Shown piece by piece: positions 51,831-54,508 of a DNA stretch of 64,000 nt. Positions within the stretch are counted from its first letter, which is position 1. Each line of letters begins with the position of its first letter. The translations under genes were made by a program, and so were the position numbers. The DNA is from Thermalbibacter longus (GTDB lineage: Bacteria > Chloroflexota > Chloroflexia > Thermomicrobiales > Thermomicrobiaceae), in NCBI RefSeq assembly GCF_023806485.1, contig NZ_JAMSLR010000001.1:310001-374000 (forward strand), written 5' to 3'. The notes below the pieces were generated by a model. The model made no database searches, was not told the origin of the DNA, and saw only the letters and a list, made by a program, of their open reading frames with translations.

Positions 51831-53006
51831 TCAGTCACCAGGCAGGTCCGAGGGACGGCTACGCTTCTCGACCATTTGGGCGATCTCTTCAGGACTCCGC
51901 ATGAGCTCTTGGCGGAGCTGGAGGTAGCGGAGCAAGGCGTTGCGAGTCAGCAGGCCCAGCAGCGCGCTGTCTCGTACGACCGGTACTTGATGGATGTCAT
52001 GCGCCACCATCTTTCTGAGCACGCTCTCGATGTCGGATTCCGGTGTCGCCGTGACCAGCCGTTCGAACGGGGTCATGAGATCGCGTACGCGCCGGGTGGG
52101 CCATTCGCTACGGGGAGTGTTGCGCACGTCGGTCAAGGTGACGATCCCAACCAGGCGGCCATCCTCGATCACCGGAAAGCTCCGCACGTTGTGGCCGAGC
52201 AGCGCGTCGACCAGCTCGTCGACTGGGACGTCCGGCGAGATAGTGACCGGACGCGCGTCCATAAGCTGTCCGACGCGGACACCCTCGAAGAGACGCTTCA
52301 GCATCAGTTGCTGGTACGACTGCTGTGCGGCGCTCTGGAGAAACCAGCCGATCGCGACCAGCCAGATGCCGGAGAGTGGCGCCCGGAAGACCAGGAAGAT
52401 CCCACCGGCGATGAACAGAAACCCGATGACGACGCCGACGGCTGAGGCGATGCGCGTCGCCCGGTACACGCTATCGAGGGCTCCCCAGAGGAACGCTCGC
52501 AGCACGCGGCCGCCGTCCAGCGGGTAGGCTGGGATGAGGTTGAAGGCGACCAGGATCAGGTTCGCGTAACCAAGATAGTGGAGAATTGCCCCGAGCGGCT
52601 CGTTGACCTGATCAGCTAGAGGCCAGAGCACGAGCGAACCGGCGCCGATGACGAGGCTGACGATCGGCCCCGCAACCGCGATGAGAAACTCGTCGATCGC
52701 GCGGCGCGCCTCCTCGACGATCTGCGCGACCCCGCCGAAGATGAACAGGACTATACTGGCGACCGGGATACCCCGCGACTGCGCGACCACCGCGTGCCCC
52801 AGCTCGTGAGCGAGCACCGAGGCGAAAAGCAGCAGGCTCGCTAGCGCTCCGACTGCCCAGTATGTGCCCGATGTCCATCCCGGGTACCACTCAGGAAAGA
52901 TCCCGACAGCGAGCGAGTAGGTCAGCAGCGCAAACACGACCAGCCAGGTGTAGTGAATGCCAATCTCGATTCCGCGGATCTTGCCCAGACGTACTGACGC
53001 GTCCAT
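51831..53006 (-). CDS. Site-2 protease (M50) with two CBS domains
   Basis: 391 residues. About six membrane helices carry the zinc protease motifs LAHELGHAVVA (HExxH, near residue 66) and NLIPAYPLDGGR (second active-site Asp). The C terminus (about 245-365) has two CBS domains, MDARPVTISPDVPVDELVDALL and MTPFERLVTATPESDIESVLRKM, which would bind adenine nucleotides. This is the SpoIVFB-like group-III S2P architecture, cleaving membrane-bound substrates with energy-state control. The target is not apparent here. Confidence 0.9.
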   Translation of the reverse strand: MDASVRLGKIRGIEIGIHYTWLVVFALLTYSLAVGIFPEWYPGWTSGTYWAVGALASLLLFASVLAHELGHAVVAQSRGIPVASIVLFIFGGVAQIVEEARRAIDEFLIAVAGPIVSLVIGAGSLVLWPLADQVNEPLGAILHYLGYANLILVAFNLIPAYPLDGGRVLRAFLWGALDSVYRATRIASAVGVVIGFLFIAGGIFLVFRAPLSGIWLVAIGWFLQSAAQQSYQQLMLKRLFEGVRVGQLMDARPVTISPDVPVDELVDALLGHNVRSFPVIEDGRLVGIVTLTDVRNTPRSEWPTRRVRDLMTPFERLVTATPESDIESVLRKMVAHDIHQVPVVRDSALLGLLTRNALLRYLQLRQELMRSPEEIAQMVEKRSRPSDLPGD

Positions 53007-53180: not shown

Positions 53181-53798
53181 TCAATGCGCTGGCGGCACTG
53201 GCCGCTTGATCTCCTCGATGTACGGGCGGTCGGCAATAATATCTCTCAGGCGCTCCCAGACGGCCAGGTATTCAGACTCTGGCGGGAGCGGGCGTAGCTT
53301 GAGGTAGGCCGCCCGGCCGTTCTCGAAGACCAGCGTCGGCGTGCCGAAGACGCCGTACCGCTGCACGCCCTCTTCATGGTCCCGGGCGAGACCGTCCAGC
53401 GTCGCCTGCTCGAAATCGCGCTGGAAGCGGTCGAGGTCCAGTTCGGCGCGCCGAGCCGCCTCCAGGATCGTCTCTGCCTTGGTCAGCTCCCAGTTCTCCT
53501 CGTGCCGTAGCCGGAGCAAAGCGAGGTGGAAGCGCTCGAAGGCCTCCGGGCCCTGTCGCCGTGCCGCTTCGGCGCCCTTCCAGGCCAGCCGGCCCCGGCT
53601 CGGGTACGTCTCCGGCTGCTCCCAGAGCTTCCAGTCCGGCCCGTGCTTCTGGTTCACCTGCTCGAGGGAGAAGTAGCGCCAGTGGAGGTCGAGTTGGCCG
53701 TTCGTATGGCTCTTGACCCAGTGCAGCAAGACCGCTGCCGTGTAGACGTACGGTCAAGCGTAGTCGTACCAGATCTCGACGCGAATGGGTTCGCTCAT
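53181..53798 (-). CDS. DsbA-family thioredoxin-fold protein, candidate selenoprotein (in-frame TGA)
   Basis: If the TGA at 53756-53754 is read through, one uninterrupted frame of 205 residues runs from ATG 53798 to 53181. It begins MSEPIRVEIWYDYA, then TGA at codon 15, then PYVYTAAVLLHWV. The first strand plus DYxCPxxY-type motif is how DsbA/FrnE-like proteins start, and the TGA occupies the redox cysteine. The rest has the inserted helical domain and the conserved cis-Pro loop GVFGTPTLVFENG. Without readthrough only a 182-residue piece missing the first beta strand and active site remains. Selenocysteine is favoured by the intact frame and downstream hairpin; a TGC-to-TGA mutation or sequencing error is the alternative. 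Confidence 0.7.
53723..53738 (-). promoter_or_regulatory. Candidate bacterial SECIS hairpin
   Basis: Fifteen bases after the TGA the minus-strand RNA folds as GCAGC-GGUCUU-GCUGC (53738-53723), with an imperfect lower-stem extension. The loop starts 21 bases after the codon and opens with GG, within the described bacterial SECIS range (16-37 nt, G in the first two loop positions). The GGUCU loop matches that of the Escherichia coli fdhF SECIS. Confidence 0.55.
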
Positions 53799-53905: not shown

Positions 53906-54508
53906 TCAGTGGATCGGCAGAGCCTCCCAAGCCGCCCGCACCTGGGCGATGGTCTCCTCGATCGCGCCGCTGTTGTCGATGACACGGTCGGCGCGGCGCA
54001 CCTTCTCTTCTTGCGGTGGCTGGGCACGGATGCGAAGGAGCGCCTCGTCCTCGCCGATCCGGTCGCGGGCCATCAGCCGGGCGAGTTGCTGCTCCGGCTT
54101 GCAGGTCACCACCCAGACCTCGTCGCAGTCTCCGGCCAGCCCGGCCTCGAAGAGCTTGATCGCATCGATGACGACCACCGGGCTGCGGCTCTCGGCTACG
54201 CGCCGGCGAATCAGCTCGACAACCGGCGGGTGGACGATCGACTCCAGCCGCGCGAGCTGCTCGGGGTCGCTGAAGACGATCCTGGCGAGGGCACGCCGGT
54301 CGAGGCTGCCGTCGGGGTTCATGACCTCCGGCCCGAATGCCAGTACCACGTCCTCCAGTACCGGGCTACCCCGGCTCATCACCTCCCGGGCCACCTGGTC
54401 GGCGTCAATCGTCTCGGCGCCGAGTTCGGCCAGCGCGCGCAGCACGAGCGACTTGCCGCAGGCGATATTGCCAGTCAGCCCGATGACGTATGGCCGCGTC
54501 CGGCTCAC
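53906..54508 (-). CDS. coaE: Dephospho-CoA kinase
   Basis: 200 residues, last step of coenzyme A synthesis. P-loop GLTGNIACGKSLV (usual GGIGSGKS variant), DADQVAREV, SIVHPPV, VVVIDAIKLFEAGL and VTCKPEQQLARLMARD. Its ATG overlaps the ABC-F stop by 4 bp, so it is translated from the same minus-strand message. Confidence 0.92.
   Translation of the reverse strand: MSRTRPYVIGLTGNIACGKSLVLRALAELGAETIDADQVAREVMSRGSPVLEDVVLAFGPEVMNPDGSLDRRALARIVFSDPEQLARLESIVHPPVVELIRRRVAESRSPVVVIDAIKLFEAGLAGDCDEVWVVTCKPEQQLARLMARDRIGEDEALLRIRAQPPQEEKVRRADRVIDNSGAIEETIAQVRAAWEALPIH

Follow-up and report, generated by a model that had tools for sequence, protein, structure and literature searches.

A DsbA-like gene of Thermalbibacter longus with an in-frame TGA very probably encodes a selenoprotein with a single active-site chalcogen

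Does a TGA that follows only fourteen codons of a DsbA-like reading frame end the protein, or is it read as an amino acid? The question arises in a window of 64,000 nucleotides from Thermalbibacter longus (contig NZ_JAMSLR010000001.1, positions 310,001–374,000; coordinates in the window count from its first nucleotide). A preliminary description had placed one TGA at codon 15 of an otherwise unbroken 205-codon frame and named no strand. The frame lies on the minus strand, where translation from 53798 to 53181 gives MSEPIRVEIWYDYA-U-PYVYTAAVLLHW... over 205 codons, with codon 15 as the only internal stop (Table 1). The plus-strand reading of 53181–53798 was also translated and was discarded, as it yields no coherent protein.

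Table 1. Positions of the DsbA-like gene, its elements and its neighbours (window coordinates, except for selD, which is given in genome coordinates).
Feature	Position	Strand	Details
DsbA-like selenoprotein gene (very probable)	53181..53798	(-)	PF01323; start ATG 53796-53798, stop TGA 53181-53183; 205 residues
In-frame TGA, codon 15, very probably read as selenocysteine	53754..53756	(-)	aligns with the catalytic Cys of homologues
SECIS-like hairpin core	53723..53738	(-)	stem GCAGC/GCTGC; apical loop GGTCTT 53728-53733
Predicted cis-Pro loop G-T-P	53337..53345	(-)	residues 152-154 of FGTPT; invariant F151, G152, P154, T155
coaE (dephospho-CoA kinase), upstream neighbour	53906..54508	(-)	107 nt before the start codon; same strand
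Site-2-protease-like M50 with CBS domains, downstream neighbour	51831..53006	(-)	
selD (L050)	G000:C1:375586-376518		~1.6 kb past the right end of the window

The residues encoded before the TGA belong to the fold, as had been proposed: the PF01323 (DSBA) profile, with a gathering cut-off of 25.6 bits, matches the read-through product from residue 7 at 54.7 bits, against 35.4 bits when only the ORF that follows the TGA is scored. In three other assemblies of the genus the encoded protein is 91–94% identical and the same codon is TGA, and codon differences from these congeners comprise 42–52 synonymous and 11–16 non-synonymous changes, a ratio of ~3–4 to 1. Within the genus, the 14 codons 5' of the TGA vary only synonymously, except for one Ser-to-Asn replacement, a pattern indicating that this segment is under protein constraint.

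Matches to the protein were found in the genomes of 40 of 60 relatives, some of them distant, and outside the genus TGA occupies the same codon in four members of another genus in the family and in six genomes from a second family. A search of named genomes returned 205 stretches encoding a relative; among the best 80 of these 205, the codon-15 column holds TGA in 46 and TGC or TGT in 34, with neither TAA nor TAG in any and no other internal stop. The assertion that the TGA stands at the catalytic cysteine of the family was thus upheld, and the alignment of homologues suggested as a check gave a clean Cys/Sec pair at this column. Because the same codon is TGA in the three congeners and in 46 of the 80 named relatives, its occurrence is not due to chance, and since the assemblies are independent, a misread TGC is very unlikely. 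A TTG downstream of the TGA could open a 182-residue ORF, as might be expected if the TGA had arisen through an error of sequencing or assembly, or by nonsense mutation from TGC or TGG in a recent pseudogene, but we reject this explanation as having a negligible probability: dozens of independent genomes share the TGA, the codon is always TGA and never TAA or TAG, purifying selection acts on either side of it and the short ORF would lack strand 1 and the active site.

The machinery for selenocysteine incorporation was traced in the genome of T. longus (3.63 Mb, 80 contigs, 99.93% complete). All four genes whose presence the preliminary description had proposed to verify, selA, selB, selC and selD, were recovered, with a tRNA-Sec bearing a UCA anticodon (75.3 bits), SelB at 323–346 bits (over its cut-off), SelA at 531 bits and SelD at 376 bits. 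The SelD gene itself contains a TGA at the usual SelD active site (CAG-U-AGKLGP), followed by a stable hairpin; as selD is thus a selenoprotein gene in its own right, the genome requires UGA decoding at another locus as well. In the set of relatives, tRNA-Sec was detected in 9 of 14 genomes with a Sec copy, and the five genomes without a confident tRNA-Sec all encode SelB over the curated cut-off; under a laxer threshold the best tRNA-Sec candidate in those five reached 47.9 bits, the level of serine-type tRNAs.

A SECIS-like hairpin with G in its apical loop lies shortly after the TGA: the structure GCAGC-GGUCUU-GCUGC begins 15 nt 3' of this codon. Its GGUCU loop resembles that of the Escherichia coli fdhF SECIS. 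At the common register the stem averages 5.0 bp in Sec copies versus 1.7 bp in Cys copies, and stems of at least 4 bp occur in 43 of 47 Sec rows versus 4 of 40 Cys rows, while pairing exceeds that in all 1000 dealt controls and at all slid registers. Compared with random synonymous recodings, Sec copies fold more stably (median z -1.98) but Cys copies do not (-0.08; Mann–Whitney p 4e-11). The p-values for the hairpin are weakened by relatedness: in independent pairs the hairpin goes with Sec by ~4 to 0, a number that cannot reach p < 0.05. For single copies the z-scores are modest; taken by itself, the copy in the window gives p ~0.05 against its synonymous-recoding controls. Four Sec copies have no hairpin at the common register; three of these (L110, L123 and L125) may carry one displaced by a few nucleotides. 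The loop takes either of two recurrent forms, GGUCU(U/G) or a GUGU loop closed by CAGCC/GGCUG. The latter, CAGCC-GUGU-GGCUG, was observed in marine Dehalococcoidia/SAR202 Sec copies (L071, L077, L081, L084–L086, L116 and others) 18–36 nt after the TGA, in the same place as the GGUCU form of Thermomicrobia. We infer that the hairpin is a SECIS element guiding UGA decoding.

Stop-codon read-through occurs in bacteria, and the UGA could in principle be read as Trp or Cys, through near-cognate read-through or a change of code, and not as selenocysteine. This is very improbable, as the gene's own terminal stop is TGA, the genome encodes a full Sec system, homologues carry Cys in 34 of 80 cases and never Trp at the column, and the Sec copies have a specific hairpin after the TGA; general reassignment of UGA is rejected by the combination of terminal TGA, Sec system and Cys homologues. 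Selenocysteine is therefore the reading we hold with high confidence: on the sequence evidence, the gene is almost certainly a genuine selenoprotein gene in which the UGA of codon 15 would be decoded by SelB and tRNA-Sec, with the SECIS hairpin inside the coding sequence, just 3' of the UGA, guiding the process.

Sec members of the family are found in Thermomicrobiota, Dehalococcoidia, SAR202 and unclassified Chloroflexota metagenome-assembled genomes (MAGs), as well as in one MAG each under the labels Proteobacteria and Nitrospinota. A maximum-likelihood tree built with the Sec/Cys codon itself masked gives a best estimate of nine changes of state between Sec and Cys, at least six of which are forced by well-supported branches; one Cys copy (L019) is nested within the Sec clade of Thermomicrobiaceae. 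The broader family occurs in 90 of 400 genomes drawn across the phylum. More distant DsbA-like matches with one TGA each were also noted in the phylum (G103:C5:496718-497272, G061:C302:595-1107 and G122:C254:10895-11467) and possibly represent other selenoprotein subfamilies.

The family motif is usually D-(Y/F)-x-(U/C)-P-(Y/F/W)-V, represented here by D-Y-A-U-P-Y-V, and invariant columns include D12, P16, W40, E46, N49 and the FG(T)PT loop. A second conserved cysteine is absent: Val occupies the second Cys position of a CxxC or UxxC motif (UPYV), and 70 of 87 members, including the T. longus protein, contain no other cysteine. The cis-Pro loop announced in the preliminary description is conserved as FGTPT with P154 invariant, and the cis geometry of this proline is predicted by analogy with the DsbA fold. 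The same description had called the protein DsbA/FrnE-like, which applies to the fold and the PF01323 match but not to a FrnE/DsbA dithiol enzyme, the motif being UPYV and not UPxC. With its N-terminus at the first beta strand and no visible signal peptide, the protein is probably cytoplasmic. The AlphaFold model (pLDDT 90, pTM 0.86) matched best to DR2335 of Deinococcus radiodurans (Z 22.3–22.5), followed by Rv2466c (Z 17.8), kappa GST (Z 16.6), FrnE (Z 15.3) and HCCA isomerase (Z 14.6), and a profile search of solved structures likewise ranked DR2335 first, with Rv2466c entries close behind.

DR2335 (PDB 7DK9, 7DKA) is the nearest structural relative, a single-Cys DsbA-fold protein superposing at Z 22.3 over 189 residues with ~30% identity; the two share a single active-site chalcogen in a C-P-Y context and a C-terminal RP motif, but DR2335 has Cys where Sec stands in the T. 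longus protein. A Deinococcus review credits it with one conserved Cys and states that no function has been reported (PMC8945050); our literature search on 7DK9/DR2335 found no further paper. Rv2466c and the DsbA-type mycoredoxins share the cytoplasmic DsbA fold, but their CPWC/CPFC motif is a dithiol, whereas the T. longus protein lacks a second Cys. The DsbA fold is likewise found in FrnE (DR_0659) and the UxxC DsbA-like selenoproteins, whose first active-site position is occupied by Sec or Cys, but these carry CxxC or UxxC in place of a motif ending in Val.

Selenoproteins of this kind have been listed before. Table 2 of the 2008 Global Ocean Sampling (GOS) survey includes ‘DsbA 3’, a PF01323 group with a UxxV motif, for which 5 sequences with Sec and 72 with Cys were counted (PMC2398784). 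‘DsbA-like form 2’, PF01323 with DxxUP, appears in a 2026 review (PMC13188914, citing Peng et al. 2016, PMC5029168); the record given as its example, MDP6049977.1, bears the name crotonase/enoyl-CoA hydratase family protein. The T. longus protein shows the U-P-Y-V of the former and, in D-Y-A-U-P, the D-x-x-U-P of the latter, the likeness being judged by motif and Pfam description. Because D-Y-A-U-P-Y-V satisfies both motifs and marine SAR202/Dehalococcoidia members occur in the present family, it is very probably of the same kind. The GOS entry is one line of a marine metagenome table, with no SECIS, phylogeny, host or structure in the text. The forecast that a Thermomicrobia-type UPxVY member would be a notable addition therefore stands for the Thermomicrobiaceae membership, but the UxxV/DxxUP pattern was already on record in these two sources.

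That the protein has a lone selenol and lacks a residue to resolve it suggests chemistry of the monothiol type, and, on fold and architecture, we lean slightly towards a role as a cytoplasmic mono-selenol reductase of mixed disulfides that employs an outside thiol as resolver. The single catalytic selenol would sit at the N-terminus of helix 1, beside the T-cisPro loop, and as selenolate would attack a mixed disulfide, sulfenic acid or similar oxidized substrate, becoming linked as a selenenyl-sulfide either to the substrate or to a low-molecular-weight thiol. An external thiol would be needed for release, since the protein has no resolving Cys, in a monothiol mechanism like the mycothiol-linked branch documented for an Rv2466c-type enzyme (PMC8280269).

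A selenoprotein with peroxidase- or transferase-like activity, in place of a thiol-disulfide reductase, is possible but rather unlikely, and its variants, kappa-GST-like, HCCA-isomerase-like or detoxifying electrophiles or metals, are jointly of the same low standing. The single chalcogen and the structural neighbourhood of kappa GST and HCCA isomerase speak for such an activity, but DR2335 and Rv2466c rank higher in the structural comparison and the fact that Sec has been kept points to redox chemistry, whereas Ser serves to activate a thiol in kappa GST and HCCA isomerase.

As to the external thiol of the proposed mono-selenol reductase, bacillithiol is unlikely because BshC was not found in the 99.9% complete genome of T. 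longus. Apart from a canonical CysS elsewhere, this genome encodes a second, short CysS-family enzyme of 420 residues (G000:C12:382890-384044; L134:4840-6102), which matches MshC and CysS equally well at 406 bits, the MshC cut-off being 485. On sequence grounds, synthesis of a mycothiol-like thiol in this Thermomicrobiaceae genome is possible. No redox partner was seen in the gene neighbourhoods of relatives, where recurrent clusters look housekeeping and include an ABC-F ATPase and the coaE region. In 19 Sec loci of Dehalococcoidia type, an RNase III-like gene, recognized by eye, adjoins the selenoprotein gene (e.g. L062:4453-5160).

Taken as a whole, this kind of selenoprotein was known before but barely described, and the T. 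longus gene adds a well-supported member. New here are the Thermomicrobiaceae members, the wide distribution in Chloroflexota, the SECIS evidence and the single-chalcogen architecture, and a selenoprotein family is added to Thermomicrobia, which none of the selenoprotein reviews searched mentions by name. No NCBIfam model covers the protein over its cut-off (the Rcas_1661 selenolipoprotein model, NF041057, gives 14.3 bits against 190), so annotation pipelines probably report a truncated product without the active site. The family also offers a natural series of Sec/Cys exchanges in which the SECIS hairpin is gained or lost, together with a solved Cys homologue. A more speculative, and on balance doubtful, proposal is that these Chloroflexota/Thermomicrobiota DsbA-fold enzymes, with one selenol, no resolving Cys and repeated Sec/Cys swaps, may serve a mycothiol-like thiol outside Actinobacteria. 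The interest of the family lies in mono-selenol chemistry and the repeated exchange of Sec and Cys, rather than in the existence of the TGA.
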